DNA of 64,000 nt from a virus, in IMG/VR virus record IMGVR_UViG_3300000547_000002, positions 1 through 64,000 of that record, one strand, 5' to 3'. The first letter of the stretch is position 1. Each line of letters opens with the position of its first letter. A model generated the notes under the pieces. The model made no database searches. It was given only the letters and a program-made list of their open reading frames with translations, and was not told the origin of the DNA. The position numbers were made by a program, and so were the translations under genes. Below, piece by piece: positions 19,852-62,839 of this stretch.

Positions 19852-19869
19852 TGTATTATGTTATATAAA

Positions 19870-21862: not shown

Positions 21863-21889
21863 ACAGCGTCCTTTATAAGTTTATTAACG

Positions 21890-21897: not shown

Positions 21898-21992
21898 ATT
21901 CCAAGCTATTTCAGAGATGCCTTCTTGATTCCTTACAATTCCTAGGGCATATTTTTGTTGTATTTGAATTTAAGTTTTTTATTTTTTTGAGA

Positions 21993-22092
21993 CTATAGAT
22001 TGTATAGTTCTTGTCCTAATTTTTCTTCTGCCCATCCGTGATATATTTTCAAAGTCATAATTTTTTCTATATCTTTAGGATATATATTTACA
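21993..22092 (-). pseudogene. Possible C-terminal remnant of a minus-strand gene
   Basis: In the 230-base divergent gap at 21863-22092, a minus-strand frame encodes about 33 codons (with YPKDIEKIMTLKIYHGWAEE) before a stop at 21993. Further upstream the frame continues only inside the opposite-strand aminotransferase gene. The amino-acid composition looks like real protein and not random translation. It could be the tail of a gene whose front was replaced when the plus-strand block arrived. Weak, since it is short and has no known match. Confidence 0.25.
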
Positions 22093-37176: not shown

Positions 37177-37198
37177 TTTAAAAATTTCCTCTTTAGCA

Positions 37199-37206
37199 TA
37201 TTTATT
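37199..37206 (-). promoter_or_regulatory. T4-late-like promoter box AATAAATA
   Basis: On the minus strand 37206-37199 reads AATAAATA, 23 bases before the ATG at 37176 and overlapping the stop codon of the preceding gene. Confidence 0.5.
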
Positions 37207-39253: not shown

Positions 39254-39274
39254 TTTGTATTCCTAAAATTATTA

Positions 39275-43204: not shown

Positions 43205-43816
43205 TTAAACCTCATTAAATCCTGATAGACTCTGCACTCTTACGGTATAATCTATCTGTATTAATCTATTCAAACTTTTCTGAACAGGATGAAATATTAC
43301 ATGTGTCAACAAACGCCCTTCGCCTGACGGTGTATATGCTCTTAGACCTAATTCGTCAAAGATAAAATCATCTTCTGTGCTAGAAGCAGTATCGAATGCA
43401 GATTGTCCTGCAGGCTCACCGTAATCTAACAAACAGGTTACTAGTATATCTGTGTAGTTTGTTCCTGATACGTGTCTTGTTTCTATTCGATTTCTAACAG
43501 GGTCAAGATTATTGACGGATCTGTCGTCTACTATCTTGGAAAATGTTTCGTTATACAAACCGGCGTTTGTTCCTGTAGAATTAGGTGTTAGATAGGTTAT
43601 AATACCAGTTTCGTTTACATTTGTTCCGCCGTTACCAAATGCCATATCCTGTATCCAACCTGTGCCTTGGTTGGCAAGACTTTCTGCTAAAGATATTGAT
43701 ATATTTTCATAATGTATGGCATTTCTTTTATCTACGTAAACTTCTTCATTTTCAGGGTCATATATTTTTATATGGCCTTGAAGTAAAACGCCGTTGTAAT
43801 CACTAAGTTCTGTCAT
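43205..43816 (-). CDS. Conserved phage structural protein (203 aa)
   Basis: The protein has beta-rich segments (LLQGHIKIYDPENEEVYVDKRNAIHYENIS, then WIQDMAFGNGG) and ends FHPVQKSLNRLIQIDYTVRVQSLSGF. It is known from marine T4-like phages between the large structural gene and the fibre genes, and has no named function; a baseplate or fibre-connector role is inferred. ATG 43816 has AGGAACG upstream and a late box GATAAATA at 43834-43841. Confidence 0.7.
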   Translation of the reverse strand: MTELSDYNGVLLQGHIKIYDPENEEVYVDKRNAIHYENISISLAESLANQGTGWIQDMAFGNGGTNVNETGIITYLTPNSTGTNAGLYNETFSKIVDDRSVNNLDPVRNRIETRHVSGTNYTDILVTCLLDYGEPAGQSAFDTASSTEDDFIFDELGLRAYTPSGEGRLLTHVIFHPVQKSLNRLIQIDYTVRVQSLSGFNEV

Positions 43817-43833: not shown

Positions 43834-43841
43834 TATTTATC
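43834..43841 (-). promoter_or_regulatory. T4-late-like promoter box GATAAATA
   Basis: Minus-strand 43841-43834 reads GATAAATA, overlapping the stop codon of the giant gene and 18 bases before the ATG at 43816. It probably drives the fibre operon. Confidence 0.5.
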
Positions 43842-46800
43842 GAGGCAATTCAGTTGTCTGTGATAGCAAAAATTCTGCTACGTCACTATTGCTTTGTGCT
43901 AGCGGTGTTCCTATGTCGCTCCATAGAGAGCCTGTTTTCCTTACGATGCTTATTTTGATTCCCGGAGGCGGTGTTTCTGTAAGCCTTACATATTGTCCGA
44001 TATTTTTGTTTACAGCAAATTCTGCTTCACGGATTATGTCCCCTTCAGGAGAATCAAGTTCTTCATAGTTATAAACTCTGTAAGGAGTTTTTCGCAGTCT
44101 CTTTCCGCCTACAAAAACTTCTATATCTTGTGCTTCCCAGTACTCATATGGAATACTTGTATAGTTAATTACTCTTCCTGTACCGCTACCCACTCCGGTT
44201 GCGATAAATTCTGTGCCAGGAGAATTGTTTGCTGCTCCTATTGCGACAAAGTCTGTATCGCCCGACTCTTGAATAACATAACCTCTGCCTGGTGTAATAT
44301 CAGCTACAGATATTACTTCTGTCTCCTTATACCAATTGGTTTCTGACGCAGGATTAGGCTGTGGAGCATAAGGTAGTAGTATCTGTAGATATTCAACAAG
44401 CGCCGGTGCTACTGCGCTTGTTTGAGCAATGTTAAGCGGTGTTGTTGTAGCAGGATTTAATACAATCAAATCATATGCTCCTACAGGCAGTTCTGGTGTT
44501 ACAAATTGAAGAGTTTCTGAGTTGATATATGTAGTTTCGCATTCAGTTTCACCTACATGAACTACAACATTTTCTCTAAATCCTGTGCCTGTAACTGTTG
44601 CTGTCTGTCCTCCTAAAGGGAAAGCAGAATTATTGTTAAAGTCATATGTTATGCCTGTTATAGACACACCAGGCGAATTTTCAAATTCTACGAGACCTCT
44701 GCTATATCCGCTTGACTCTACAATAATAGTTTGTGTTTCGTCTTGATAAGGTAAATTGTTGGCGCTTCCTTGTTCAACAATTACGGTGCCTGCTTCATAT
44801 CTATCTTTCACGCCTGTTCCCAGTGTGCCTCTACGTAATTGAGTAAGTGTATTGCCTTGTTTAACAAAATATTCTATTCTTTCACCTTCAATGAATACAA
44901 TACCCGGCATTCTTGAATTGTAATTTGGGTCTGGCAATTCTGAAGCATCTATAACTTCAATGCGCTTATCGAACCAGTTTAGATCCTCCGCAAGTTGCTG
45001 TTTCTTACCAATACGCTTATAGTGTGTTCTGTTAAGAATATCTTTGAACTGCCTCCAAGCAAATATAGGTTTGACATCATTTGCTGCGAAGTGTATTATT
45101 TCTAGTTCGTCGCCGTCTTGAGGTATTTCAGCAAGTTTAACGGTTTCTCCGCCATTTTGAACAGAATAATCTACATTGTGATTAAGCAGATTGCCGTTTT
45201 TGACTACCCATACAGAATTTTTTTTCTGAGCGGGTTTAGTAAGGTTTATCACACCTTTTGACAATTGTTGATTTTCAAACCATTGAGGTGTGCCTTCTGC
45301 GATATTAGGATTAAGATTTACCGTTAAAACCTGTCTTTCTATGTTTTGAATGTCGTGATTAGAGAAGGAATAAACCTTGATTGAATCACCTTCGCTGTAT
45401 GGGGAATCTATATTAAGAGTTGGTTTGGTGCTGTCTTCACCTCTCTGTGGTATAAATTCGCCCGATTCGTCTATAAATCCGAAACGATATTCGCCTGTAT
45501 TCATTACAAACACTTCAAGAATATCGCCAGGCTGAGCTGTTCCTGTTACAAGGTTTATTACATTACCATTGACTACACCCGGTATATCAGTAGGATCGAA
45601 CGTAAAGTCTCCTGGATAGTTTAGAAGATTACCGTTTAGATAGACTTCTAGATATCTAGGATCTGTTGTGTCTGACGGAATTTGAGCTACGTCTAGCTGA
45701 TATGATAATACGCCTTCTTGTATTTCAAATTGTTTGTTATAAACAGAACGTAATAGTTTGTCATTAATAAACACAAGAACATTATTAACAGCAGGTTGTT
45801 GCGCAAATATATCATTTTCTAGCGTAAATTGCGTGGTAGAACCGTCTGCTACAAATTCATCTAATCTTACAATGCTGAGATTTGAATTTTCTATTCCACT
45901 TTCTGCTACCATTATATTAACAAAACTGTTCGCAGCAGGAGGAGAAGCAAATTTTACTATGGTATCTCCTGGACGATCGTAAGTTTCGTCTGCTTCTTGT
46001 AATTCAAAGGCTTTATCTACACCGTTTACGGTCACATATGCTTCCAAATCTTCGGAATACGCTGCTGGAATTAAGAATTCGCCAGTTTCTCCGTCGCCCT
46101 GGAACTGCTGAATATCAAATATTCTAGAACCGCTGTTTCCAAGATTAACAATGCTAACAACAGCGTTCGCAGCAGGAGCTGAATTGAAAATCACTGCGCC
46201 GTTTTGATAATCAACCACATAGTCTTGGCTGTCTTTGAGATCATGATCAACTTTTACAAACAGCGCGTCTCTATTTACAGGCGTTTCTCCTATGGAAAAC
46301 TCTGTTCTCGCACCGTCGGCTACAAAGTTTCTTACTTCAATGGAACTGCCGCCTGCGGCTGGTGATTCATATACCTGTATATCTAATGTATCCTGTAGCT
46401 GTCCAGGAACAATTTCTTCCGGTCCTCGAGATGTTGTTTCTGTGACAAATCCGTCACCGTCTATTTCTATTTCTTCTGCTAGAACACCGCGAGCATTTGT
46501 ATAGTTTAAACTACCGCCCGACAACGAAACATCATAAGAGTCTGGATCTGGTATGAACGAACCATCGCTTGTAATTTTTCTTACAATAATTGTAATAGAA
46601 TCTTCTGTGCTATCTTCGGGCGTAGTTGGTATATTCAACTCATCCAACTCAATTTGGGTAGTAGAACCGTCGCCTATTAAACTGACACAAGTTGCGTTTT
46701 CGTTTGTTTGATCCGCAGTCCCAAAATTTGGATCGTCCATCCTTTCGTTGCTTACGATGTTTCCGTTTGAGTCTCTCGCAACTCTATAGATGTTATAAAC

Positions 46801-49800
46801 TACATTTGCTTCTAGAGGTTGTGAAAGCTCAACGGTAATTGTGCTTCCGTCTAGGTTGATAATTTCATCTTCAAAGTCTGTGTCAAACACATCCCACGGT
46901 TGAGCAAACCAACCCTGACTATCCCAACCAGTCTGTCCTGAAAAATCAAAACCAGTGATTTCTACACCACCGTAATCCACACCGTACATTAATTGGCCGA
47001 GATATTTTCCTAGATCGCCTTCCTTGGGATCGTATTCAAAGTTTATTCTGTCTGCGGCTTTGAGAATATCCAGTGCCTTTCTGTATTCTATGCGAATTTC
47101 TGTGCCCGCAGCAGGGGCAGGATCTATAACAACTCTGCCCAATGATCTTTCATAGGTTTTAGAATTATCTACGACATTTTCGTATGAATATGTGCCTCTT
47201 GGAACTGGAGCATTGTCAATGAACACAGATACTCTGTCGCTTCTTAAATCCATTGGCCACTTGAGATCGAACTCCTGTCTAAATCCACTACCTGTAAATG
47301 TTTCTGTGGTGTCTAGTGACACAAATTCGAAGTTGCCGCTTGTTCTGTCGAACTTGATTTTCACAGAAGCAGTTCTTACAGGATTATCGCCTATTCTAGC
47401 AACTGCTCTTGCTGGTGTTCCGCCTTCTTCTATTGATCCTATAATATTGACCTGAGGACTTGACAGATAGCCTGATCCCTGTGTTACAATAGAAATTTGA
47501 CTTACGGTGCCGCCTGCGCCGAGAGACGCTTGAGCCGTTGCTCCTGTGCCCCCGCCGCCGGTGATTTCTACGACTGGTCTATTCGTGTATCCCTGTCCAG
47601 AATCTACTACGTCTATTTCTATAACACGATGTGTGAAATTTTCGATCCAGTTAGAATAAGGATCCTGGACAATATCACCGTCGCTTGTTACAACTTCGTT
47701 GTTTCTAACAACGGTTTTGAATGGAAGAATTTTCTGTTCGCTTTCTACGAAACGCGGAGGTAAATCAAAGTCTGTGACAACGGTTTCCGTGTTATCTCTG
47801 TTGTCATAAGTAGAAAGATACTCTCTTACCTTTGTCTTATAAGGTTTTACTTCTTTCACATACTCTTCATATGACGCTAGATTATCATTGGAGAATGTAA
47901 GTTTCTGTTCTAGTTCTCCTACATTGTGCTGTGCTTTTACAAAACTGGTCTTGAACGCCCAATCTACAAAATTCTGTTCCGCAAACACATATCTAAGGCT
48001 AGCAAAGAATAAGCCATTGTATTCACCTGCTAGGTCATCTACCAAAATGTCGTCTCTAACTGTTTCGAGAATTTTTCTAGTTTCTGTTGTAGGTAGAGCA
48101 TCAAAATTAACACCGTCAAACGCAGTAACGTCATAGCCTGTTAGGTTTCTCGCTGTGTCATATAGCCTTGGCAGAATTTGTATGGTTCCATTTTCTCTAC
48201 CAATAGTCTTATAATTTTGAGTATAGTCTATAAAGTCATTGTCTGCGATTTTTTCTAACAGCAACCAGCCGCCGCTGTTAATATTCTTGATTTTTACAAT
48301 GTCGCCAATTACATCATTTAGACCAAACAGCTCGTAGGAAGAATCTATAAGGAAGCTAATGCCTGTGTTAGCATTATATCCTGCAGCATACCAATCTTGA
48401 TATTCCCAATACTTTGTTACGTCATAGGCTTGGCTTGATATACGTATCCAGTCAGTGTTATCTCGATTTCTCTGATAGATTGCCCATTTTCCGTCAATCG
48501 TAGAATCGTTTTCTACCAGCACAGCAAAAGGTCTCACAAGAATTGTAGTAGCATCATTGTAGTATTCGCCTTCTGATACAATTTCTACAGATACTATTCT
48601 ACCTTGTGTGTCTATTTCTAATTCTAATTCTGCGCCAGTGCCTGTGCCTATGATTTCGATTGTAGGAGGTCTCTGATAGGATCTGCCAGCATCAACTATA
48701 TCTACATCTACGATTCTGCCGTTATCGATTACAGGTTTAAGAACGGCAGGTCTTGCTCTTGTAATGCCAATAAATTCTAGATCTATTTCAGTTTCTACTG
48801 TTCTGTCGTATCTGTTTGACACAATTGACGGTTTAGGATCCGTATCTAATAAACCAGAAATGTCCTTTTCGTCTATTATGAGATTGTCAATTAGCACTCT
48901 GTTGAGTCTTTCGACAAATTGTTTTAGTGCTTCTATTCTATTCACAAACCAACTCTGTCTTGGTCTGTTTAGAATACCGTATTTCTGTTTTGGATTTAGA
49001 GCAGGGTCAGGAACAGGGCGTCTTGCTTGATCAAATCCTACCAAACTATCGAACCACTTTGCTTCTACGTCTTGGTTTGGCCTGCTGGATTCAAGATTTT
49101 CTGTTAGTATCTGATATTGATTATGAACATTAGCATCTTGATTTTCAATAGTGTAGTATTGAACGCCAAGAGCAACATCTTGATTTTTGAATAGAGAATT
49201 GCTGTTATAGATTGCGAATTCATCCTTGCTTATAAACGCAGCAAATCTGTAGCCTTGACCTGCTGGATCTGAAATTAATTGAGCAATATCTCTTGCGGAG
49301 AGGTTGCGATTTTCTACGACAGGAACCGTGCTCTTGTTTCTTACCCAATAGTAGTATCTGTTACTGAAAGTGTTTGTAACTTCGTTATACACTCTCTTTG
49401 TGACATATCCGTTATCACCATATCGTGTGGTGCCTGTGATCCCTTGTGTGAATCCCTGTTCTGTTCCTGATCTTGAATCCCATTCTGACGGAAGCAGTGC
49501 GGATTCTACCCATTCATAGACATCAATGGAGTTAGAATCGGAGAATAACGTGTTCCAATTATTTGCAGAGTAAGTTACGGTTCCTTGATATGGATTTAGG
49601 AATCTCGCATTGGAGAGATCCCACCATACTTTTCCTACCTGTCTTGCTCCCCAGCTATTTGTTTTATTAATGTTGCCTTGAGTGCCGTCTGTGTAAGTAG
49701 CAGGATCTTGATACATTTTGAAATCTATTTCTTGATCTGCTACTCCGGCAACTTTTCCTTGTAGAGGATCAATGTAATCAAGGTATTCTATTAGTTGATT

Positions 49801-52800
49801 GGTTTTTGTATTGTAAAGAATTACCTGTTTGATTTTATCGACATCTATCGTAGGTTTAATCTGTTTCTTAATGCTCCAGAAATTGTCTTCGCTGTCTTTT
49901 TTATATTCAATCAAAACGCCTTCTGCGCGATCTGTTGATAGTTTTGGCAGAGACGCATATAAAACTTCATTGGCAAGTAAAATATTTTCACCGAAGAATC
50001 TTACGCCTCTGTCGTAATCAACGGTTTGGAAATATAGCGCAGTGTTATCCTCAATCTGATAAAGTCTTACGGTTCCTGTGTTTTCGGTTTGATCCACAAA
50101 CATTGTAAATTGCTTATCGAAAGTAGTAGTTTGATTGTCAAAGGTAGTAACAGCAGAAGCATTTGAATTTTTAGAAGTTATTGCGAGAATTGTGTCTGAA
50201 AATTCTACACGTGTTCCAAACTGCTCTCCGATCGCCTCTGTAGGTCCTACAAGTGTTTGAATAAGTTCGAAAACGCCGGATATCTGTTGATACACATACA
50301 CCTTGCCTTGATCGATATTGCCTTCACTATTCCTTGGAGCACCAACAGCAATAAATCTGCCGTCTGGCGTTATCGAAACTGAAATTCCATAGTCTTGATC
50401 TGCTAGGTCAGGCTGAATTGTTTGATCGAGAATGTAGAATTCGTTTAGATTTCTATAAACTAGAACGGTGTCTTTGTCGTCGTATCTTGCGGACAACGCA
50501 ATAATTTCTCCATTACGAGATACAGCATAATCTCTCGCAAATTCTACAAGGCCGGCGGCATCAAGAACGGAGATATCTGCGTTGTCTAACACCAATCCCG
50601 AATCATTTGGTATGTAGCCTAGATAGTCTACGGGCGTTGTAATTAATTCCCATTCTGTTTCGTCAAATGGTTTAGGAATCACATTGGTGACTGCTCGATA
50701 GAGTTTGTCATTGCGAAATACAACATCGCCTTCTGAATAAATTATATCGTCAGTTGCGGCAGTTTCTACATATTCTCCTGCGTAGTTTTTATCTATACAG
50801 AGTTCCCAATCATAGAAGAATCCATTAGAATCGCCTCGTTTAAAGGAGTAAATTTTTCCGTATTCTTGGTTTTGTGACGCTACGGATTCGTCTGCTTTTA
50901 CAAATATTTTTTCTAAACCGTTTATTGTGGCAGATTCTATTTGACTACCTAGCTGGTTGTCGGTCTTTCTATCTGGTACGATTAGGTTTTTGTAGTTTGT
51001 CCATTCTACCTTGCCCGTTCTTTCAAACACAGACACAACGCCTTCGTTTGATAAACCACTTGGATCACCGCCCGCACTGGCTTCTACTGAAAATACCTTG
51101 TCCCAGTCCGCATTTATAACACTGGGAACATTCGCAGGACGAGTAGATCCTAGTACGGTTTCTTCTCTATAAAACCAATATTCTGCTTCTAGCAGTCTTG
51201 GGTTTTGAATGTCTTCTAGTAGAACAGGTGTTTGTTTTTTAAACACTAGCATCTTGCCTATTCCGAAATCGTCGTTAGGGAATGATCTTCTGTCTAGCTG
51301 GCCTATTGTTCTAAAGCCAGAGTCGGGATCATAGAAATCGTCACCTGATCCGTCTGCGAGGAAGTTTATTGTTCTATTTTCACCGAAATCTCTGCCAAGA
51401 CCCCAGTCGCCTTGTATGTTTCGAATGTATATTCTAGCATCGTCGTTGTTGAATTTCTGATAGAATAGAACTTCTGCTGTTCCTAGTCCTTCCGCATCTT
51501 GAATTATTTGCGGGATTGGCTGTTCTGTGACCGGGTCTAACTGAACAAATTCGGAAAAGATGTCATAGGGCTCTACTACTCTGCCGGATTCAAAGCCGAG
51601 AATTGTAATGTCAATGTAGCCATCCCATACATATTCTATTGTGTGTCTCTTATTGACATCGGCAACTGAAAGACCTGTGTCTGTGATATCTTTGATTACA
51701 CCATTTTCGTAGCTGGGAACAGGATTGTAAAATAGATCAATTTCGTCACCTGGGGCAACACGATCTGATATAGATTTCGGTGCCCTAACTACAAATAAGT
51801 CACTTTCCAGTTGAAAGTTTGCCTGATCGTATGGTCCAGGAAGGCCTTCATAACTTAATGTCGTAATTTCGCTGTATCTATCATCGGGCCCTGAATTCGC
51901 AGGCGGTTCAAAATTTAATACGTTTTCGTAGAATCTGTTTTGATTGGTTTCTCCTTGAGGGACAAAATCATAGATTACTAATCCTCTGCCTGTGTCGCTG
52001 TTTTTTCCATTTACTTCGTAGTTTTGCGCAACATCTATCTTCCAAAAGCCACCAAAGGCATCTGAAAAATCTGCGGTGTTTTCTACAGGCTCTACTTTTT
52101 CGTATTGACCAATAAATTCACCAATGCCTGTAATAGCAGTGCCTTCTATGTCAAAGTCACCGTTTTGATCTTTGATATAGATACTCAAGGCAGAACCAAT
52201 ATTATAAACATAGGCAATTGTTCCTACTGCGTTTGCTGTTTCAATTGTCTGTCCTGCTTCCGGAATTGCTGTGGCATTAGGAATAGAAAGAACGGTTTCT
52301 ATCTTATCGGAGATTGTAAGTAATCCTGTAAGATTAGAGTCATCGAAATTTGCTAAATCGCCGTTGAAAGGCTGACGTTCTGTTAATAGTGTTTGATCTT
52401 GATAGGCATATGATAGTGTGTTCCATTCTGCCTTTATTTGATCTCCCACAGAAGAGCCCTGATACTGGTCCAAAGGTGCTCTTATAAGGAAATGGTCTGC
52501 TATGTTTTGTTCGTCTGGGTCGGCGCCAACTGAAACAAGCGGATAATTACCAGCTAGAACGACTTCTACTTGCTCGTCGTTTTCACCTGTTAATCCTTTT
52601 TCAATGAGATTTTGTAGATAGGAATTCCATGATCCTAGAGGCACACTTTCCAAAAATCTCTGAATAGGTGCGGTAGCACGCCATAGGTTGTCTCGCAGCC
52701 TTACAACATCGCCTATAGCATAGTCTCTGTTTTCGTCGAAGTCTCCTTGATATAGACTGGCAACGTTAGAGGCACCCGGAGCACCCACAACGATCCATCT

Positions 52801-55800
52801 ACCGTCTTGCGATACTGCTACAGAAGATCCGAAACGAGATCCCGAGTCCGCTATACCTGTTTGAAGAACAAGTGTTTGTGCCAGTTTGTAATTGCCTGAA
52901 GCACTTGCTCTTACATATACAAAAACCTTGCCATCTTCGTCGTTGGGGCTGCCTACAACAAGAACGGTGTTTCTAGAATCTACAGCAAACGATGTGCCAA
53001 AAGACTCCGGAACAGAATTCGGGTTGTTTATTTCTTCTGATTCTACGAGAGAACTTGACCTTTCGAGAACCTTCCATCGGTTGTTCAAGTCTTTATCTAG
53101 GTAGAGTTCGGAAAGACCGTTTTCTATTTCGTTGATAGCACGATTAACGTCTCTTGCGGATTCAAACCTAGAAGAAATCAATTTGTTAATAGCAGCATAA
53201 TTTTCTTGAATTTCAAGATTGTTTGGTCCAGAAACGTAAACTTCGTTGGAAACTATGTCTTCTATCTTGTAAAAACCGTCCTGTGTTGTGTAGTCTAGAC
53301 TTATGATTTCACCTATTTCTAGATCAAAAATTCCTGTTGAAATTTCTAAAACAAATTGACTGCCTGATTCTATGATGGATTCAACCGTGATGTCCGAATT
53401 TAAGAGAGTGTATACATCCCAATCCTGTTCTAGGTTTCCTACCCATACGGTAGATCCTAGAGTTGCTTGATTGTAGTCAATGTCTAAAATATCATCGTAT
53501 GTGTCTACTCTAAAGTCAACATCTTCTTCTGCGACATAACCGCTGTCTTGAACATAGCCTTTCGTCACAAATTTCGACACAGGAATAGAGTGTGTGTAAT
53601 TTTCTGGTTTGAGATAGACTTCTCCGGGAAGCAGTTTGATTACCCTGCCTGTGTAATCTGCGTCAACTGAATCAACCAATTCAAATGTTTGAGGATCGGT
53701 AGAAACTTGAGTTTCGTCTACGACAAATTCTACTTCTTCAAAACCATCTACGGCACCATATTGGCCTACTTTGATTGCCCACTCTTCGAAAAACTCAAGG
53801 CTTTCTCGATCCTGCGAACCAAGCGGGTCAAAAAGTTTTGTTAGAGCATTACGTGTGCCTTTGTCTTGAATAAATCCTTGATAGAATTTGTATTGACTTA
53901 CGTCATCGTTTATAATATTAGCAAGATAGTCTCTATTTTGATAGCCTATTAGATGCTGCGCAAATTTTTGCTGTTCCGCATCAAAATTGTCTGTATCAAG
54001 ATCATAGAAATCCGCAAATTGATTTGTCTTGTAATCAAAATTTGGTAACAGTCTTGATTCTGGCCTTTCGTCCAGCAACTGCCAATCATCTGCATTAAAC
54101 ACTGCTGCGCCAGGAATTCTGTTTTTCGCAGCATAGAAAAATTCTTTGTATTTTACAAGGTCGCCTATCGCATAATCTCTCCAAGGCTGCCATTCTGTGA
54201 CTCTCGCATCATCAAACACAAATCCAGGTATGTTGAGAGAGCCGTTCCACTCTGTAGTTCTATAACCCAGAGCCTTGATTCTTTCTTGCCTAAAGCCCGG
54301 TCCTTGGTCGTATATTATATCGCCGAAGTCGGTTCTGTTGTCTATAATAACAGCGTGTTCTTTCTGTATAAGGCTGATTCTTACACCAAAAATACCATCT
54401 TCTGTTGCTCTAGTTCTTATTCTAAATTCGTTTTCGTTTTCTCGAGTAAGAGCAACGTATCGAGGCTCTAAAGGCTTACCATCTACCTTGAATAGGCTAT
54501 ACCCATAAAATGTATCATAGATATCACCTACCATGGCATTTTCTGGTCTAAATCTCAATTCGAAAGCGCCTGGTGATAGAGAAATTACAGAACCTTCACT
54601 CCAGTTTTGTAATGTCCAGAACGCAAATTCTTTCGCTGCTGTCTGCCAGTCTGCTACAAAACCGTTTTCTGCTTCATAGTAATCAAACACAAATCCCTTT
54701 GCTTCTAGCCAATCTCCGTAGCCTAGCAGAAAGTCTACTACTTCCTGTATGTTTTCTATTACCGTGCCGTATTTGATGGTTCGTTCTTGTGATCTGTCGA
54801 ACTGCGTGCGGATTACGATGTCTCTACCGCCTTCTCTAGGCACTTCTGGCAGTTGAACAAACTTGTCTGCGTCAAATTGTGTGGAAGTTGTATGTGATTC
54901 AAGTGTTCTATAGAATCTTGACTGAAATACTACAACCGCACCTTTGGAAATAAATTTTCTCTCATCCCACTCAATAGTTGCTTCGCTTACACCGCCTACA
55001 TTTATCGTAGAGTCTGATTGTTTTTCTATGTAGCTGTAGTAAGTGAATACAGGATTGTATTCATCGTAGCCTCTTATAATAAAGCCGCTTGGTATTTTTT
55101 CTATGTAAACACCGCTATAAAAAATATTCCGTATCGGTGTGCTTGTGTTAAGAAATATCTGATAGTTTTCCTCTGGAACAAAAACATTTCCCTGATTGAG
55201 AGGAGTTCTGCTGTCAAGCAAGAGTTTTAATTTTTCTTTGTTAGAAAATCCTGCCAGTTTGAATCCCAGTTGAACTTCTAGACTTTTTAGTTCCTGTTGA
55301 TATGTTTCATAGGCCTGATCTGAATCTATGTAATCTCTTATCCAATTTACCAGGCCAGAAGTTAAAACAATATCTTCGTCGGTTTGTCTATTTGGGAATT
55401 TAAGTGCGGATAGCGTCAATTGTCTATTAGCAGCTTCATAGGATAGTTCGTCTATACCTGTGCGGAACGTTCTACTTCTATCAAACGCAGTAGCAAAAAC
55501 TCTGTTTGGCTGATTTTGAATTAACGCAGATATAAGAGCAAAAGGATATTCTGAACTCCTTCTCCACGCAGTTTCTACAGGAGATTCGTCGCCAAATTGA
55601 AATCTATTGTCTAGTTCATAGCTGTTGTAGGTTTTTACATAGTTGGTTTTAAGCGGCGGAAGCAGTTGTCCCGCAGCATCTACAGGAACAAAAGCAGAAA
55701 GACCCGGTCTCGCATACTTGGGGGCAAATTCTATGTTTTCGTCAGGCTTTCTAATTATACCTCGTTCCAGATCTTCCCATAATATCAAATTGTTTCTTGT

Positions 55801-58800
55801 GTAAGGAGCAGGTCCGTAGGTCTGTTCCCACCACTCTGGTTTTTCTGAATAGCCGAGCATTTCCCAGGGATGCGTGTGAGGTCTGTCTGTGTCGTAGAGG
55901 TTCTTGTAAATCCTTCTCCAATAGCCCCTTATAACTTCGTCTCGAATTGATCCTGTGCCTGTATAATTGTAGGTGAACGAATTAGTTCTTTCGTAGAAGT
56001 TATTTTCGGTGTAATCTGCTTCTACGAGATTTGTCCAGGAAATAAAATCTGGCAGTATAGAATCGTCTATTTGGTCTTTGGTTAGTCCAGTAGATCTAAA
56101 TTCTGACGGCACATAATCGTTTATGTCAAATATATTAGGATCATAGGCGATTTTTATATTATTATAGATCCTTTTTTCTAATTCAAGTAGTAGATCGTCT
56201 CTGAAGTCGCCGTATGCTTTTGTAATACTGCCGTCGTGGCCTTGTATAACTTCTCTGGGCTCTAGATAGGTGTCATCTACAAACTTCTCTGGCTTAAACA
56301 GAGGATACAAACCCAGTTTTGTAGGCGTGGCAGGAACAAAACTGCCGTTTGTAGTTTCATATTCGTAGATCGTGATTGTGTCTCCTACTGATGGAGATTC
56401 TGTTAATTGGACAAAATTTTCCTCTGTAATTGTGTAATCATAGCCTATGAGCAGTTGTTGTTGATTTTTATAAACTAGAACGGATTTTGAACTTAGCACA
56501 TTAGGATCAAACGGTTGAGACAGCGCAAAAAATACTTCGCCATCAAACGTAATTCTTGATTCGCTTATTTCGGCAGCTCCGTATGCTAACATGTCTGTTT
56601 GGAAAAACTCGCTCTGCCTTGTTTTGTTAGCAGCGTATTCACGCATTACTTGATTAAAATGCTTAGTAGTAGGCCCTTCAAAGCCCAGTCTTGTAGCAAT
56701 TTCTACAAATTCTCTTTTAAACTTGCTGTATGCGTTTTTGGAATATCTAATTGCTTGGATAATGTTAGCAGGATTTCGATCCAAATGATATAACGCAAGA
56801 CTCAAAGGCGCAGAGTGTTTTACTATTCTTTTGCCAAATTGAGAAACCGTGCCTTGGTCTCGTAGATTGCTTACTCCAGGAAACGCTCCTTCGAATTCGT
56901 CTATTTCGCTTACTATCGTTTGAACATGATCATTTATTTCACCAAGGGTAATAAATTCGAAATTTTCGTTTTGAGGATTTCTTTCGAGATTTGAAGGTAT
57001 TTCATACAGGCCGTTTTGGTTTTTCGGCTGGCTTGATTTTGTTTTTATTAACACTACATCTTCGTTGTCCAAAGTTCTTTGAAATTGTATTTGAAGTGTG
57101 TTGTTAGAACCCGTGACAAATTCGTAATCTCTATTTTGAAATTGTAGAGCGTTATTAACAAAAACCTTTACATACAAATCGTCAATTAGCGCAGATTCGT
57201 CATAGACGTCGATAGGGAATGTGGTATTGGAATTCGCTACTACAAATTGTCTTACGACAGGCTGTGTGCTTAATTCAAAACCTTTCTTCCAACCGTTATA
57301 CCATACAAAATTCGTTCTTGAAACAAACTTTTTAAGAAAACCAAGGTCTGTCTGTTCCTCTAAAACTTGTAAATTGTCTGGACAAAAAGTTATGCTGTCT
57401 TGTAAAAGATCAAACCTAAACAGAATGTCACCGATATTTCTTATATTTCTATAGTTTAGGCGAATTCCCAGTTCTGGGTCTATAGGAGAATTGCCCATGC
57501 TATAGGAAAAAATTCTAGTTCCTTGAAAGTCGCTGGAAGGATATACTTCTCGGTCAGCAAGGCTGTCTCCGTCGCAGTTGAATACGTCAAATAGAGGAGG
57601 TTGATTTACACTTTCTTTCTGCTGTGATAGACTCCATGTGTCGCCGTCATAACTTAAAATTTTACCTCTGTAGGTTCTGCCCTGTAGGCAAAGCACGGTT
57701 TGATCTATCAAAGGCTCTGCGTCTTCTGCTTCTACGAGAGCTATCTGTCTTTCACCTTTGAACGTAATAAACGAAACTTGAAAAGTTTTATTAGATACAA
57801 ACGTGTCAGGATCGGCTGTGAATAACACTCTCATGCCTTCTACTAGATTTACACCATCTACAGAATAGCCGGTGCTTCCTTCTATAGTAGAAAACACGTC
57901 TTTGGTAAAATCATCTACAAGATCAACTGCCTGTTTTTTTGCTGTGCCAAAGTTAAAAAGTTTTAGACCTGCTTCAAATTCAATTATAGGTCTTGTTGCT
58001 CTTTGGTTTTGGTCTATAACCAATTCTGTGTTGTTGATTCGAGCGGCGGTTTCTATGATGTCTCTGTGAGTCCAGCGATTGTATTTGGACCAAAGGTTTC
58101 CGTCGCCGCTTGCTCTGTTAATTGTAAAGTAGTCTTTTTCTCTAGCAAAACCTATCGCTGTAGAATAGGGAGTTGTATCGTAGGCTTCTGTGTCGAATTC
58201 TATGATTTCATTCTGTAAAAAGTCTGTAGGCGTAGTCAGTTCTGCTTCGGGAACAAGAGCAATTTCTTCGCCTACACCTTCCACATAATAATAGCCTTCT
58301 TGATAGAATTCTGGCGAAGTCTTACCTTGGAAGAAGATTTTCATTCCATTTGAAAGATCAAAGTTTTGACCTGTTCTATAGGTCTTCTTTCCTATGATTT
58401 CTTTTTCTACGTCTATGAAACTTGCTTCTTCGAGATCGTATATTCTAATTAGGCCGCCAGCATTTATATCTACGTCACTTACATAGTAGATAAAATCAGG
58501 AGAATTTTCGTCCAGCGTAAATTCAACCGTGCCTTGTTCTACGCCTTGGACGGGTATTGTTCTAGAAAGATTGAGATCTTCGTTGTTATCCCATTTGTCT
58601 GCGTCTTTTTCGAATTCGTCGTCGGATCTATGATCTTGAGTAGCAATGTAGATTTTTGAATCTACAAGAACGGTTTCGCCAGTTGAGTATGATGTAAATG
58701 GCGTCCAGGCTCGAGCTGTTAAGCGCTCTGTTCTAAAGCTGATAGGAACACCAGGTGAATCTATTACAAAACGATATGCTACTCCTCTGTATAAAGTGAT

Positions 58801-59385
58801 GTCTGGATTCTGTGTTAAACCGTCTGGTGTAAAAACAAAAGCAAAGTTATCCCCATTATCTACAGATGTAACAGAATAGGTAGTTTCAACGTCAAACGAT
58901 TCGCCCGCAACAGGAATAGGATCTGGGCCATTAGGGAGCCAATAGTATTCTCTGAAATTTACAAACTTGTCCCAGTCTATGTGCGGATCCCACGCATAGT
59001 ATTCCTGTCTATTAAGCAGAGAATGATCGTCTGTGTTACCTCCTATATTTGAGATTTGATTTATATAATCATTGTAATCGCGATAGAAGGTAACATTGTC
59101 TATCGAATCTTTGGCAACGACAGCAGGTTCTAGCTGATAGTCTTCTCTCTGTTTAGACACATCACCAATATAGAAATCGTCTGGTCTAAACGCAGGCGAT
59201 GCTTTTCGGCCAAAATAACCGTTTATTTTTTCTACAACGCCGGGCTGCGTTAATTGATCAAACGTAGAAGAAAGAAATTTCTTGTTTGTTTCGGTCCTAA
59301 AATATCTAGGAAGGTGAAATGCGCTTTCTCTCTTGTCGTTATTACCGCCTGGCAATGGAAAATCATTTTGGTCATTAGTTGCCAT
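43837..59385 (-). CDS. Giant virion structural protein (5182 aa), probably baseplate-associated
   Basis: This 15.5 kb frame is uninterrupted. It directly follows gp6, where T4 has gp7, so a baseplate wedge-linked role is likely but not shown. Domains visible: five CBM5/12-like repeats (WxxxxxYxxGDxVxxxxxxYxA), at about 58720, 54975, 54195, 52750 and 50760; FG-GAP-like propeller repeats at about 53010-52790 and 50560-50170; two related Gly/Thr-rich repeats near 48700 and 47600; an IPT/TIG domain at about 44680-44450; and several beta-sandwich repeats of the form FVADGSTTQF ... VFVNN ... DY (about 57230 and 46330-45700). Many are binding or spacing modules of phage and adhesin proteins. The start ATG 59385 is 11 bases after GGAGG and overlaps gp6 by 11 bases. 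Confidence 0.85.
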   Translation of the reverse strand: MATNDQNDFPLPGGNNDKRESAFHLPRYFRTETNKKFLSSTFDQLTQPGVVEKINGYFGRKASPAFRPDDFYIGDVSKQREDYQLEPAVVAKDSIDNVTFYRDYNDYINQISNIGGNTDDHSLLNRQEYYAWDPHIDWDKFVNFREYYWLPNGPDPIPVAGESFDVETTYSVTSVDNGDNFAFVFTPDGLTQNPDITLYRGVAYRFVIDSPGVPISFRTERLTARAWTPFTSYSTGETVLVDSKIYIATQDHRSDDEFEKDADKWDNNEDLNLSRTIPVQGVEQGTVEFTLDENSPDFIYYVSDVDINAGGLIRIYDLEEASFIDVEKEIIGKKTYRTGQNFDLSNGMKIFFQGKTSPEFYQEGYYYVEGVGEEIALVPEAELTTPTDFLQNEIIEFDTEAYDTTPYSTAIGFAREKDYFTINRASGDGNLWSKYNRWTHRDIIETAARINNTELVIDQNQRATRPIIEFEAGLKLFNFGTAKKQAVDLVDDFTKDVFSTIEGSTGYSVDGVNLVEGMRVLFTADPDTFVSNKTFQVSFITFKGERQIALVEAEDAEPLIDQTVLCLQGRTYRGKILSYDGDTWSLSQQKESVNQPPLFDVFNCDGDSLADREVYPSSDFQGTRIFSYSMGNSPIDPELGIRLNYRNIRNIGDILFRFDLLQDSITFCPDNLQVLEEQTDLGFLKKFVSRTNFVWYNGWKKGFELSTQPVVRQFVVANSNTTFPIDVYDESALIDDLYVKVFVNNALQFQNRDYEFVTGSNNTLQIQFQRTLDNEDVVLIKTKSSQPKNQNGLYEIPSNLERNPQNENFEFITLGEINDHVQTIVSEIDEFEGAFPGVSNLRDQGTVSQFGKRIVKHSAPLSLALYHLDRNPANIIQAIRYSKNAYSKFKREFVEIATRLGFEGPTTKHFNQVMREYAANKTRQSEFFQTDMLAYGAAEISESRITFDGEVFFALSQPFDPNVLSSKSVLVYKNQQQLLIGYDYTITEENFVQLTESPSVGDTITIYEYETTNGSFVPATPTKLGLYPLFKPEKFVDDTYLEPREVIQGHDGSITKAYGDFRDDLLLELEKRIYNNIKIAYDPNIFDINDYVPSEFRSTGLTKDQIDDSILPDFISWTNLVEADYTENNFYERTNSFTYNYTGTGSIRDEVIRGYWRRIYKNLYDTDRPHTHPWEMLGYSEKPEWWEQTYGPAPYTRNNLILWEDLERGIIRKPDENIEFAPKYARPGLSAFVPVDAAGQLLPPLKTNYVKTYNSYELDNRFQFGDESPVETAWRRSSEYPFALISALIQNQPNRVFATAFDRSRTFRTGIDELSYEAANRQLTLSALKFPNRQTDEDIVLTSGLVNWIRDYIDSDQAYETYQQELKSLEVQLGFKLAGFSNKEKLKLLLDSRTPLNQGNVFVPEENYQIFLNTSTPIRNIFYSGVYIEKIPSGFIIRGYDEYNPVFTYYSYIEKQSDSTINVGGVSEATIEWDERKFISKGAVVVFQSRFYRTLESHTTSTQFDADKFVQLPEVPREGGRDIVIRTQFDRSQERTIKYGTVIENIQEVVDFLLGYGDWLEAKGFVFDYYEAENGFVADWQTAAKEFAFWTLQNWSEGSVISLSPGAFELRFRPENAMVGDIYDTFYGYSLFKVDGKPLEPRYVALTRENENEFRIRTRATEDGIFGVRISLIQKEHAVIIDNRTDFGDIIYDQGPGFRQERIKALGYRTTEWNGSLNIPGFVFDDARVTEWQPWRDYAIGDLVKYKEFFYAAKNRIPGAAVFNADDWQLLDERPESRLLPNFDYKTNQFADFYDLDTDNFDAEQQKFAQHLIGYQNRDYLANIINDDVSQYKFYQGFIQDKGTRNALTKLFDPLGSQDRESLEFFEEWAIKVGQYGAVDGFEEVEFVVDETQVSTDPQTFELVDSVDADYTGRVIKLLPGEVYLKPENYTHSIPVSKFVTKGYVQDSGYVAEEDVDFRVDTYDDILDIDYNQATLGSTVWVGNLEQDWDVYTLLNSDITVESIIESGSQFVLEISTGIFDLEIGEIISLDYTTQDGFYKIEDIVSNEVYVSGPNNLEIQENYAAINKLISSRFESARDVNRAINEIENGLSELYLDKDLNNRWKVLERSSSLVESEEINNPNSVPESFGTSFAVDSRNTVLVVGSPNDEDGKVFVYVRASASGNYKLAQTLVLQTGIADSGSRFGSSVAVSQDGRWIVVGAPGASNVASLYQGDFDENRDYAIGDVVRLRDNLWRATAPIQRFLESVPLGSWNSYLQNLIEKGLTGENDEQVEVVLAGNYPLVSVGADPDEQNIADHFLIRAPLDQYQGSSVGDQIKAEWNTLSYAYQDQTLLTERQPFNGDLANFDDSNLTGLLTISDKIETVLSIPNATAIPEAGQTIETANAVGTIAYVYNIGSALSIYIKDQNGDFDIEGTAITGIGEFIGQYEKVEPVENTADFSDAFGGFWKIDVAQNYEVNGKNSDTGRGLVIYDFVPQGETNQNRFYENVLNFEPPANSGPDDRYSEITTLSYEGLPGPYDQANFQLESDLFVVRAPKSISDRVAPGDEIDLFYNPVPSYENGVIKDITDTGLSVADVNKRHTIEYVWDGYIDITILGFESGRVVEPYDIFSEFVQLDPVTEQPIPQIIQDAEGLGTAEVLFYQKFNNDDARIYIRNIQGDWGLGRDFGENRTINFLADGSGDDFYDPDSGFRTIGQLDRRSFPNDDFGIGKMLVFKKQTPVLLEDIQNPRLLEAEYWFYREETVLGSTRPANVPSVINADWDKVFSVEASAGGDPSGLSNEGVVSVFERTGKVEWTNYKNLIVPDRKTDNQLGSQIESATINGLEKIFVKADESVASQNQEYGKIYSFKRGDSNGFFYDWELCIDKNYAGEYVETAATDDIIYSEGDVVFRNDKLYRAVTNVIPKPFDETEWELITTPVDYLGYIPNDSGLVLDNADISVLDAAGLVEFARDYAVSRNGEIIALSARYDDKDTVLVYRNLNEFYILDQTIQPDLADQDYGISVSITPDGRFIAVGAPRNSEGNIDQGKVYVYQQISGVFELIQTLVGPTEAIGEQFGTRVEFSDTILAITSKNSNASAVTTFDNQTTTFDKQFTMFVDQTENTGTVRLYQIEDNTALYFQTVDYDRGVRFFGENILLANEVLYASLPKLSTDRAEGVLIEYKKDSEDNFWSIKKQIKPTIDVDKIKQVILYNTKTNQLIEYLDYIDPLQGKVAGVADQEIDFKMYQDPATYTDGTQGNINKTNSWGARQVGKVWWDLSNARFLNPYQGTVTYSANNWNTLFSDSNSIDVYEWVESALLPSEWDSRSGTEQGFTQGITGTTRYGDNGYVTKRVYNEVTNTFSNRYYYWVRNKSTVPVVENRNLSARDIAQLISDPAGQGYRFAAFISKDEFAIYNSNSLFKNQDVALGVQYYTIENQDANVHNQYQILTENLESSRPNQDVEAKWFDSLVGFDQARRPVPDPALNPKQKYGILNRPRQSWFVNRIEALKQFVERLNRVLIDNLIIDEKDISGLLDTDPKPSIVSNRYDRTVETEIDLEFIGITRARPAVLKPVIDNGRIVDVDIVDAGRSYQRPPTIEIIGTGTGAELELEIDTQGRIVSVEIVSEGEYYNDATTILVRPFAVLVENDSTIDGKWAIYQRNRDNTDWIRISSQAYDVTKYWEYQDWYAAGYNANTGISFLIDSSYELFGLNDVIGDIVKIKNINSGGWLLLEKIADNDFIDYTQNYKTIGRENGTIQILPRLYDTARNLTGYDVTAFDGVNFDALPTTETRKILETVRDDILVDDLAGEYNGLFFASLRYVFAEQNFVDWAFKTSFVKAQHNVGELEQKLTFSNDNLASYEEYVKEVKPYKTKVREYLSTYDNRDNTETVVTDFDLPPRFVESEQKILPFKTVVRNNEVVTSDGDIVQDPYSNWIENFTHRVIEIDVVDSGQGYTNRPVVEITGGGGTGATAQASLGAGGTVSQISIVTQGSGYLSSPQVNIIGSIEEGGTPARAVARIGDNPVRTASVKIKFDRTSGNFEFVSLDTTETFTGSGFRQEFDLKWPMDLRSDRVSVFIDNAPVPRGTYSYENVVDNSKTYERSLGRVVIDPAPAAGTEIRIEYRKALDILKAADRINFEYDPKEGDLGKYLGQLMYGVDYGGVEITGFDFSGQTGWDSQGWFAQPWDVFDTDFEDEIINLDGSTITVELSQPLEANVVYNIYRVARDSNGNIVSNERMDDPNFGTADQTNENATCVSLIGDGSTTQIELDELNIPTTPEDSTEDSITIIVRKITSDGSFIPDPDSYDVSLSGGSLNYTNARGVLAEEIEIDGDGFVTETTSRGPEEIVPGQLQDTLDIQVYESPAAGGSSIEVRNFVADGARTEFSIGETPVNRDALFVKVDHDLKDSQDYVVDYQNGAVIFNSAPAANAVVSIVNLGNSGSRIFDIQQFQGDGETGEFLIPAAYSEDLEAYVTVNGVDKAFELQEADETYDRPGDTIVKFASPPAANSFVNIMVAESGIENSNLSIVRLDEFVADGSTTQFTLENDIFAQQPAVNNVLVFINDKLLRSVYNKQFEIQEGVLSYQLDVAQIPSDTTDPRYLEVYLNGNLLNYPGDFTFDPTDIPGVVNGNVINLVTGTAQPGDILEVFVMNTGEYRFGFIDESGEFIPQRGEDSTKPTLNIDSPYSEGDSIKVYSFSNHDIQNIERQVLTVNLNPNIAEGTPQWFENQQLSKGVINLTKPAQKKNSVWVVKNGNLLNHNVDYSVQNGGETVKLAEIPQDGDELEIIHFAANDVKPIFAWRQFKDILNRTHYKRIGKKQQLAEDLNWFDKRIEVIDASELPDPNYNSRMPGIVFIEGERIEYFVKQGNTLTQLRRGTLGTGVKDRYEAGTVIVEQGSANNLPYQDETQTIIVESSGYSRGLVEFENSPGVSITGITYDFNNNSAFPLGGQTATVTGTGFRENVVVHVGETECETTYINSETLQFVTPELPVGAYDLIVLNPATTTPLNIAQTSAVAPALVEYLQILLPYAPQPNPASETNWYKETEVISVADITPGRGYVIQESGDTDFVAIGAANNSPGTEFIATGVGSGTGRVINYTSIPYEYWEAQDIEVFVGGKRLRKTPYRVYNYEELDSPEGDIIREAEFAVNKNIGQYVRLTETPPPGIKISIVRKTGSLWSDIGTPLAQSNSDVAEFLLSQTTELPR

Positions 59386-62300
59386 TAGTGTTAAATCCTC
59401 CGATATTGGAGCTTGTTAAGCTTGAACTCTGTATGCCTGTGTTAGCCATTGAAGATTCTGTGATAATAGACGAACTTGCTCTTAATTCAGTTGCGGTTAT
59501 TTCGTCTATGATTTCTATATCTGCTACCGTTGCGCCCGATATAAAAATTTCATTTGATTCAGATTTTATTTCGTATAGTGATCCAAATGATGCTGTGCCT
59601 TCTACTGGCACTATTACAAAACTTGCTAAGTCTGGAGCGTTTTCATTGATAACATATGCTGCTAATTCTGAAAAATAAAATACATCTCCAAAATCCCAAT
59701 TGTCAAGAGCAAAATATCTATTGATGCTTCGTATTACTCGCGATTTTAATTCGTTGTCGTTTATTACAAGATCCGGATTCTTTACAATCTTGAAACTGGC
59801 CTGTAATTCTGGATCTGCCTTGTCTCCGAACAGAATCTTGTATTTCACAGGATGATAGATGATTTCGTCACTTATGCTTTTTATGCTGTTCAATTCTTGT
59901 CCAAAGTTAATAAACAGGCTGTCGTTGCTCGGAGGCAGAGGCTTGGTTTCTATATCTCCGCTTAACCATTGTCTAAACTCTTGATCGTAGGATCTTGTCA
60001 ATAAGAATGTGTCTATAATATTAGAAGCACCTGGATCTATTCTTACGTTTTGATCAGCAGAGTGAAAATACTGAAATCTTAGTTTGTCTCTACCAACTCT
60101 TGCTCTATAATTCGAATTGAGAGAAGTGGTGTTTGTTTCTGTGTTTAGATTTTCAAATATATCTTCTTGAACATAGTAGAGCAGTTGATTGTTTTCAAAT
60201 TCGCTCTTTGGAACTCTTTCGAATTCTGTTTTCTGATTGAATACTCTTATGCCAAGATCTTCTTTTGACACATATACAAAATCATTAACACCGTCGTTCG
60301 TTCTTACAGATTCAAGGAAAACCAATTTGTCTGCGGGATTTGTATTCTCCGCGACTACGTCTTCAAATGTGTCCGGAGAATCTACAACACCGTCGTTGTC
60401 AGAATCAAAGAAACTAACTTCAATTTTTTTAGAATCTACATAACCTAGTTCGTCTCTGAATTCTTTTACAATTTCCCAATCAAAATTTCTGTTGAACGGT
60501 TCTACGGAATCTGGCTGTGTGTTAATGTCAAGCACGGAAATTCTGTCTTTAATGGTTTTGCCAGTGGTAACGTCATATACCGTGTCTGAACTATCATAGT
60601 AAAATCTTACTTCTTGGTCAGACTCGAAAATATATCGTAGTGTTCTGTAGGTTACTGTATAGTTTTCACCGTTAGTTTCGAACACAATAAACCAACTTGC
60701 GTCAAGTTCGTTATCTGTCGTGTCGCCTGTTTTTCCGATAGAAAAATCAGCGTTTGTGTTAAGATTGTTTTGAGTAATAATCTGCCATTCACCTAATGTT
60801 CTGTCGTAGCGAATGCCAAACGTGTTGAATGAAAATATTTGATCTATTGCTTGATTTCTTACTTCGTCTGTTAGGCTGTTAGGCAAATCTGTTACAATTT
60901 CTGCTACTATTGCGCCTGTTGGCACAGAATCTGCGAGAACAACAGCACCAACACCTGCGTCTGAATCTTCTGTGCCGTCGCCTGTGACAGAGATTACCTT
61001 CGTCCATATCTGAGTGGATCCGCCTTGTGGGCCTGGCATGCCTTGTGCCAAGGCGCCGTTTAGAAAATATTGTCCAGCCGGTGCTTCGAATTTTACAAGT
61101 GAATTTGTTCTTATAAATCTAAGATTAGACGAAGCAAATTCTCCTACTTTTGCTCTCAATCCACCCGCATTAACAAAAGACCCAGAAGAAGAATTTGTTT
61201 GATCAAGCACTCTTTGCCAGGTATTTTCTAGGTCTCTTACTATAATTCTAGGATATTGGTCTAGATAGAAATTGTATAAATTTCTTTCTTCGAACAGCGG
61301 TTCTATTCTATTAACAATTATGCCTTCTATTTCTGTTAGACCGTTGAAATCAAATTCTATCTTTTCGTCTATGTATTCTTTGTATAGAGCTCCGTCTGAC
61401 GCAAAAATGTTTGTGGCACTATATTTGCCACTGGGGTCGATTAAATCAAAATATCTAGACACGCCAGAGGATGATCTATTCACTGATTTTGTTTTGATGA
61501 TTTCTTGGCTTAAGCCGAGAGGTGCTATCTGATAGTCTTCTCCTGTGATCATCCTATTTTGAGTGTAATAGGTAGAAGGAGCATTGGTCTTGATGCTTTC
61601 GTTTGTTTCTGATACACTGGCATTGTCTATTGTGTATTTTAAAGAACAGATAAGAGTAATAGTTTCCGCTCTACCCGTTTGGGAAATATAAGGAATTCTT
61701 ATCGCTATATTCCTCATATCCTGCGGCTTGATTAGAATTCTAGAATTAGCACTGGTTCTATAATAAACTCTGAATCCGCCCTGCGGTAGATTGCCAAATG
61801 TGCCGTCTGCGAATATTAGAGAAATTCTGTCTTCTACTCTTGTAAGCACAGAATAAATGTTTCTTTGATCTTTTTCCAAGCTGTTGTAAATTACGTTATT
61901 TCCTTCTACAGCATCAACTCTTGTCCAAAGTTCTTGTTCTAAACCGTTTTCGTCTGTAGAATATAACCATACATCTGTTTCATTGACATTAATAGCATCA
62001 ATAGCAGCAACTTGATTTGTGCTTGGATTGGTAATTGAAAAATCACCAAGGTCGAGCGAGCCCTGTCTAAAGTGACAGAAGTAACCTGTGTTTGTGCTTG
62101 CTGGTCCTTGACCGTCGTTTCTGTGTAGAAAGCCGAAGTCATTGCCAGGCAGTGGTGCTTCTTCCTGAATTCTATCCCCTGCAATGTCTGTTGAGACTAA
62201 CTCGAACGTGAGAGATCTTCCATCTACTGCTTTCGTAAAACTAAAGGTAGGGACAGCGTTAGATGCTCCATTCAGTTTATATTGTTCTGTTGGAACACCA

Positions 62301-62839
62301 TTGATGTTTGCTGATTTAGCAGGATTGCCTATTTTATTATTATTAGGAAGTGCTGCGTTTAACACTCTTTGAAACTGCTCGTTCCAGTTAGAATTAGAAG
62401 GATCATTCCATACAACGGTTTGATTCGCAAGATTAACGTTGTTGGAATCTCTTACTGCTTCTGTAGTCGATACAGAGTCTATCTTTAGTAGGCCGTTTGC
62501 TGCTTGGTTTCTTTTAGGGTTGTACGAAAGCAGTCTTGCTAATCGTAAAACACTTTCTCTTCTTTCTGCTAATTCTAGGTAGTTTTCTCTAGCATTAAGA
62601 TCTATTCTAAACGCAATGTTTTGGCCTAGGAAAGCCATCATGTCTATTAGAGCAAGATATTCGGATGACTCTATGTAGTCGTTAAAATCTTCGGGATAGT
62701 TCTCTCGAAGATAATTGATCATTGTTCTGCGAATATTGTCAAAGTCGTAACTTTGGAATTCCGCATTTCTAAATGATTGATAAACTCTTTTCCAATCTTC
62801 AGATACTAATAATCTATTTTGTCTGTTAGTAATAGACAT
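59375..62839 (-). CDS. 6: Baseplate wedge protein gp6
   Basis: The N-terminus (TNRQNRLLVSEDWKRVYQSF, then NYLRENYPEDFNDYIESSEYL and NIAFRIDLNARENYLELAERRESV) is diagnostic for T4-like gp6, which forms the inner ring of the baseplate with gp25 and gp53. At 1154 residues it is longer than T4 gp6 (660), as in other marine T4-like phages; the extra length is in the middle and C-terminal parts. It lies after gp25 and before the giant protein. ATG 62839 has AGGAAA upstream and a late box at 62861-62868. Its end overlaps the next start by 11 bases. Confidence 0.9.
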   Translation of the reverse strand: MSITNRQNRLLVSEDWKRVYQSFRNAEFQSYDFDNIRRTMINYLRENYPEDFNDYIESSEYLALIDMMAFLGQNIAFRIDLNARENYLELAERRESVLRLARLLSYNPKRNQAANGLLKIDSVSTTEAVRDSNNVNLANQTVVWNDPSNSNWNEQFQRVLNAALPNNNKIGNPAKSANINGVPTEQYKLNGASNAVPTFSFTKAVDGRSLTFELVSTDIAGDRIQEEAPLPGNDFGFLHRNDGQGPASTNTGYFCHFRQGSLDLGDFSITNPSTNQVAAIDAINVNETDVWLYSTDENGLEQELWTRVDAVEGNNVIYNSLEKDQRNIYSVLTRVEDRISLIFADGTFGNLPQGGFRVYYRTSANSRILIKPQDMRNIAIRIPYISQTGRAETITLICSLKYTIDNASVSETNESIKTNAPSTYYTQNRMITGEDYQIAPLGLSQEIIKTKSVNRSSSGVSRYFDLIDPSGKYSATNIFASDGALYKEYIDEKIEFDFNGLTEIEGIIVNRIEPLFEERNLYNFYLDQYPRIIVRDLENTWQRVLDQTNSSSGSFVNAGGLRAKVGEFASSNLRFIRTNSLVKFEAPAGQYFLNGALAQGMPGPQGGSTQIWTKVISVTGDGTEDSDAGVGAVVLADSVPTGAIVAEIVTDLPNSLTDEVRNQAIDQIFSFNTFGIRYDRTLGEWQIITQNNLNTNADFSIGKTGDTTDNELDASWFIVFETNGENYTVTYRTLRYIFESDQEVRFYYDSSDTVYDVTTGKTIKDRISVLDINTQPDSVEPFNRNFDWEIVKEFRDELGYVDSKKIEVSFFDSDNDGVVDSPDTFEDVVAENTNPADKLVFLESVRTNDGVNDFVYVSKEDLGIRVFNQKTEFERVPKSEFENNQLLYYVQEDIFENLNTETNTTSLNSNYRARVGRDKLRFQYFHSADQNVRIDPGASNIIDTFLLTRSYDQEFRQWLSGDIETKPLPPSNDSLFINFGQELNSIKSISDEIIYHPVKYKILFGDKADPELQASFKIVKNPDLVINDNELKSRVIRSINRYFALDNWDFGDVFYFSELAAYVINENAPDLASFVIVPVEGTASFGSLYEIKSESNEIFISGATVADIEIIDEITATELRASSSIITESSMANTGIQSSSLTSSNIGGFNTNGN

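Follow-up and report, generated by a model that had tools for sequence, protein, structure and literature searches.

What protein fills a 15.5-kb frame directly behind the gp6 gene of a T4-related phage? The question is raised by a 64,000-nucleotide (nt) stretch, hereafter the window (positions 1 to 64,000 of the 79,180-base IMG/VR virus record IMGVR_UViG_3300000547_000002), which encodes a protein of 5182 amino acids (aa) at the place that gp7 takes in T4. We propose that this giant protein is a hugely expanded baseplate-wedge subunit in the gp7 slot of an uncultivated T4-related jumbo phage, with a fibre/receptor scaffold function. We put the probability of this reading at roughly two in three. 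The features discussed are collected in Table 1.

The giant gene and its position after gp6

The frame runs without interruption from an ATG at 59385 to a stop at 43837 on the minus strand and covers 24% of the window. At the base composition of the window, 5182 open codons would arise by chance with a probability of ~10^-157. The G+C bias of the codon positions is uniform end to end (GC1 0.46–0.55, GC2 0.34–0.45, GC3 0.25–0.34). A GGAGG ribosome site lies upstream of the ATG, and the frame begins within the last bases of the gp6 gene. A second IMG/VR contig (L011), identical to the window at 99.94% over 17,184 nt, keeps residues 1–4189 open, as far as it reaches; therefore, the frame is not an assembly accident. 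Among the 80 related IMG/VR loci that we kept, 45 hold complete homologues of 4112–5293 aa, all unbroken (the count omits L068, whose longest frame was a different one). The single frame filling about a quarter of the window, as described by an earlier sequence-only reading, is a genuine gene.

By profile comparison, the upstream neighbour is a proven homologue of T4 gp6: it matched the PHROG category ‘baseplate wedge subunit’ with E=0 and the T4 gp6 family phrog_219 with E=3.5e-25, and HHalign against the T4 gp6 profile gave a probability of 98.2 (E 2.9e-14). The gp25–gp6–giant order of the window recurs in seven of the eight cultured jumbo phages examined. The giant gene directly follows gp6 in Phosso, PA5oct, Atu_ph07, RaK2, Vibrio phage 2.275, CBB and XacN1, and seven cultured jumbo phages have gp25-like homologues, some annotated as such, immediately before gp6. 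In the environmental loci, gp6 was found directly upstream of the giant gene in all 66 cases with enough sequence. The comparison of the gp7 slot across related phages, which the earlier reading had called for, thus bears out its placement of the gene.

The two halves of the giant protein matched phrog_10938, ‘virion structural protein’, with E=4.9e-278 and 9.9e-85. Its N-terminal 1000 residues match 57 phage records, and BLAST returned matches to seven cultured phages. The homologues measure 3313 aa in XacN1, 3326 in RaK2, 3340 in CBB, 3857 in PA5oct, 4449 in Atu_ph07 and 4555 in Phosso. The named members of phrog_10938 (RaK2 ORF070, CBB_236, PA5oct gp355, Atu_ph07 gp180 and Phosso gp294) are homologous to the window protein in both conserved cores and share its slot after gp6; they are shorter, at 3326–4555 aa vs 5182 aa.

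Relatives of the giant protein are virion components, in agreement with the structural role first assigned to it beside gp6. Mass spectrometry (MS) of CBB virions detected CBB_236 (21 unique peptides covering 7.72% of it; PMC5259590), and PA5oct gp355 is marked ‘ESI-MS/MS’ in its database record. The accessible part of the Atu_ph07 source, which does not include the entry for gp180, gives MS-identified clusters that comprise coding sequences (CDS) 170–215. This large and widespread family, often annotated just as ‘hypothetical’ or ‘virion structural protein’, is likely the gp7 of RaK2-like jumbo phages.

Relationship to gp7

T4 gp7 (1032 aa; phrog_964; Pfam Gp7 domains) has the slot after gp6 and a KGT-type signature in common with the window protein. 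It is five times shorter and, taken as a whole, does not match the window protein significantly in sequence. The signature stands at position 738 of 1032 in T4 gp7 vs 1842 of 5182 here, and the downstream gene is gp8 (334 aa) in T4 vs one for a 203-aa protein here. In the giant protein, the motif reads FYQGFIQDKGT..ALTKLF and falls within residues 1801–1900. Nearly all family members show the pattern FYxGFIxxKGTxxAxxKLF, and no part of the protein is better conserved than the stretch that holds it. T4 gp7, P2 gpI and cyanophage gp7 have the KGT signature in common; at this core, HHalign joins T4 gp7 to cyanophage gp7 with an E-value of 9e-9, and PHROG cross-matches fall near T4 gp7 646–759.

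A combined gp7/gpI profile was run over all 5182 residues in 101 scanning windows. The top-scoring ones were those of residues 1801–1900 (23.7, against a mean of 10.9 and a standard deviation of 3.2), and the score at the KGT stretch was above those of all 300 column shuffles. With cyanophage gp7 alone, the shuffle maximum was exceeded (26.4 vs 21.0); with the T4 gp7 sequences alone, it was not (15.2 vs 17.0). Because the combined profile was built around the motif, and P is ~0.002 per scanning window and fails full correction for their number, we count the match only as suggestive of a gp7-type core signature.

In gp7 orthologues, an N-terminal helical bundle holds two gp6-type subunits, and the outer parts hold spikes or fibres (PMC10457771; PMC10966104). 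The gp7-like part is described as a hotspot of re-engineering (PMC8894135). A model of low confidence shows the KGT region of the giant protein as helical. On the basis of the P2 gpI and T4 sequences, we infer that the signature may be part of the bundle that holds gp6.

Several results weigh against a descent from gp7. When HHalign was used to compare the T4 gp7 family (24 sequences) with the giant family over the whole length, nothing significant emerged; P values for T4 gp7 were ~0.05 or worse, and the profile comparison with P2 gpI was not significant either. The Pfam Gp7 domain was absent from residues 1000–2090 of 23 members. Neither Tail_P2_I nor Baseplate_wedge (PF23786) found a match in the genome, although the latter matched the cyanophage control. 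Residues 1000–2090 were predicted with low confidence (a predicted local distance difference test score, pLDDT, of 61) and found no significant PDB match. The statistics of the KGT match are weak, as given above. Finally, in the Salicola phage SCTP-2 (MF360958; L005 and L121), gp6 lies ~90 kb from the giant gene. There the order is broken, and the giant gene is preceded by another giant gene (3096 aa).

The missing profile match, the weak KGT statistics and the separation of the two genes in SCTP-2 would all suit a scaffold or adhesin of the baseplate periphery that does not descend from gp7. The KGT likeness would then be due to chance, and the true gp7-type subunit would be a different, small protein. 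No other gp7-like candidate was seen adjoining gp6 in the window, however, and the KGT falls where the family is most conserved, the very place picked by three gp7-type queries. We give this explanation a minor but real chance.

Conserved cores and expandable segments

Alignment of 33 family members revealed two conserved cores with a variable segment between them. Residues 1–200 are also conserved, and residues 200–300 less so. The first core finds matches in Phosso, PA5oct, Atu_ph07, RaK2, SCTP-2, Vibrio 2.275, CBB and XacN1. From the N-terminus to the equivalent of residue 1875, the members span 1515–1946 aa, with the exception of L047 (1042 aa). In this 4112-aa relative, much of the first core is missing and KAT replaces KGT; its gene may be broken or start elsewhere. 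The second core measures 598–627 aa in most members, 438–444 aa in PA5oct and SCTP-2, and ~560 aa in RaK2, CBB and Vibrio. Since the inter-core segment (315–1651 aa) and the C-terminal part (551–1514 aa) vary most, length variation is confined mainly to these two places. RaK2 and CBB, unlike the window protein, have a variable segment of only ~316 aa. Both cores are globular sequence rich in tryptophan and tyrosine. Searched against the sequences in the PDB, the core alignments found only a tailspike stretch, a chitin-binding domain and a single match at chance level.

The inter-core segment is predicted to be a β-propeller with integrin-like repeats. Pfam FG-GAP_2 matched it with E=4.2e-12 and 46.5 bits (cut-off 23), and FG-GAP repeats were present in 20 of the 23 members scanned. 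A profile of the segment matched integrin alpha-6 by sequence (E=0.0032). The AlphaFold model is almost all-beta (pLDDT 84.3), and Foldseek aligned it with integrin alpha headpieces (E ~1e-7, prob 1.00). Since many other kinds of propeller protein matched as well, the wording ‘beta-propeller, integrin-like repeats’ is the safe one. About seven repeats can be counted by eye in short members, for example L027 (444 aa); judged in the same way, the window protein would carry ~600 extra residues between repeats two and three. By prediction, fold and repeats are thus like those of the FG-GAP propeller of integrin alpha, from which the window version differs in its ~600-aa insertion and in its setting, a protein of the phage baseplate region. 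In the four cultured relatives scanned (Phosso, Atu_ph07, PA5oct and RaK2), Pfam did not detect FG-GAP. A literature search for FG-GAP together with bacteriophage, baseplate and tail yielded one paper, on an algal virus.

Other surface-type domains accompany the propeller. Besides the CBM5/12-like module of Table 1, weaker copies occur elsewhere in the giant protein, and another copy, in the first core, is present in 22 of 23 members (alignment A2). The TIG domain was found in the window protein only, of 22 members scanned, which suggests that the C-terminal part recently acquired or exchanged a domain.

In the proposed gp7-type wedge subunit, one copy would be present per wedge and six per virion. 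The helical, KGT-bearing stretch around residues ~1800–1900 would pack with two gp6 copies, like gp7-type proteins. The two conserved cores would form an enlarged wedge and its periphery. The inter-core segment and the C-terminal part would be expandable sites bearing the FG-GAP propeller, the CBM5/12-like modules and the TIG domain. These surface domains may serve as docking points for fibres or make contact with the host surface, and relay the signal to the wedge and the sheath. If so, the family reveals the growth sites of such proteins: two expandable positions at which surface domains are added to a wedge core that stays fixed. PA5oct, RaK2 and CBB are clear targets for structural studies of fibre attachment and host sensing by wedges. 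A stronger version makes the gp7-type subunit itself the sensor of host contact, with receptor contact by its built-in propeller and carbohydrate-binding modules acting on the sheath trigger with no fibre in between; we consider it distinctly unlikely.

One suggestion of the earlier reading was a long flexible appendage, which would be a tail fibre or whisker. The great length of the protein, the CBM-like, TIG and propeller domains typical of surface proteins, and the hair-like tail whiskers of CBB (PMC5259590) would fit it. Yet the large, strongly conserved globular cores speak against an appendage, and Rak2-like phages, for which whiskers were not described (PMC5259590), also encode homologues. 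Pfam and PHROGs detected no fibre-repeat architecture in the giant protein, and the fibre genes, which have an attachment domain of their own, are separate and lie downstream. We regard the suggestion as improbable. Cleavage of a precursor into several normal-sized proteins is very improbable: the modular plan with two variable segments and the low peptide coverage of CBB_236 would allow it, but Pfam found no protease domain in the giant protein, and lengths and cores are conserved. A tape-measure protein was rejected on general features, as the giant protein is beta-rich, follows gp6 and is far too long for the 123–128 nm tails reported for CBB and RaK2.

Table 1. Features of the giant protein and its neighbours; coordinates refer to the window.
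Feature	Residues	Coordinates	Strand	Basis or remarks
Giant protein gene	1-5182	43837..59385	minus	5182 aa, about 584.5 kDa, isoelectric point 4.4; phrog_10938 E=4.9e-278
First conserved core	~300-1920	53626..58488	minus	conservation profile (33-member alignment)
CBM5/12-like (chitin-binding type-3-like) module	226-256	58618..58710	minus	Pfam PF02839 E=9e-9 (2515-aa half searched)
Most conserved 100 residues	1801-1900	53686..53985	minus	helical in model; KGT at 1842-1844
KGT signature, QDKGTRNALTKLFDPLGSQ	1840-1858	53812..53868	minus	resembles T4 gp7 KGIEASYKFLFKVLY and P2 gpI KGTIGAIRRVVEPLG; not individually significant
Variable segment between cores	1876-3256	49618..53760	minus	315 aa (CBB) to 1651 aa (L025)
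Predicted FG-GAP / integrin-like beta-propeller	2090-3185	49831..53118	minus	Pfam, AlphaFold, Foldseek
Second conserved core	3257-3860	47806..49617	minus	~600 aa in most members
C-terminal part, variable length		43837..47805	minus	551-1514 aa in family
TIG/IPT immunoglobulin-like domain	4919-4979	44449..44631	minus	Pfam PF01833 E=6.4e-14
gp6 homologue, baseplate wedge		59375..62839	minus	1154 aa; PHROG and HHalign
gp25-like baseplate wedge / sheath initiator		62893..63336	minus	147 aa; PHROG baseplate wedge families
203-aa protein, phrog_11259		43205..43816	minus	adjoins giant gene downstream

Giant proteins after gp6 in cyanophages

The earlier reading had ranked the protein among the largest expected in a T4-like phage. 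Its 5182 aa are real, and homologues of 5217–5293 aa exceed it; the claim of the largest T4-like protein was dropped because of cyanophage ACG-2014b (L126 / NC_027130, 173 kb), where a 6422-aa protein follows gp6 directly (53572-72840). In Sf-CH8, a protein of 4878 aa after gp6 is annotated ‘baseplate wedge subunit’. S-SSM7 (L125 / GU071098 57561-76655) has two genes of ~3000 aa, both annotated as gp7 ‘baseplate wedge initiator’, and the KGT motif occurs in the first of them only. Like the window protein, the cyanophage giants (6422, 4878 and, for S-SSM7, 3007 aa) are very long post-gp6 proteins with a KGT core, and some small beta-rich modules are common to both. No homology was detected between their large cores and those of the window family. 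Giant proteins at the post-gp6 site are therefore already on record; new here are the propeller-bearing segment and the length relative to the named homologues.

Neighbouring genes

In the reading direction, the genes are ordered gp25-like, gp6, giant gene, 203-aa protein and four fibre-like proteins. The 203-aa gene lies downstream of the giant gene in 49 of 49 testable environmental loci. Searched against PHROGs, its product matched phrog_11259 only, with no match to the T4 gp8 families. Cultured jumbo phages also encode the phrog_11259 protein; the RaK2 and CBB genes for it lie ~7 kb off, on the opposite strand. The four fibre-like genes follow one another at 35686-43201 on the minus strand. 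Their products have an N-terminal stretch of ~90 residues in common (46–51% identical to the first) and diverge in the remainder, a pattern that marks them, by sequence, as a fibre set sharing one attachment domain. Genes at 12014-28893, in the left half of the window, may form a cluster for sugar or cofactor modification: they encode three radical SAM proteins and one that resembles UDP-glucose dehydrogenase.

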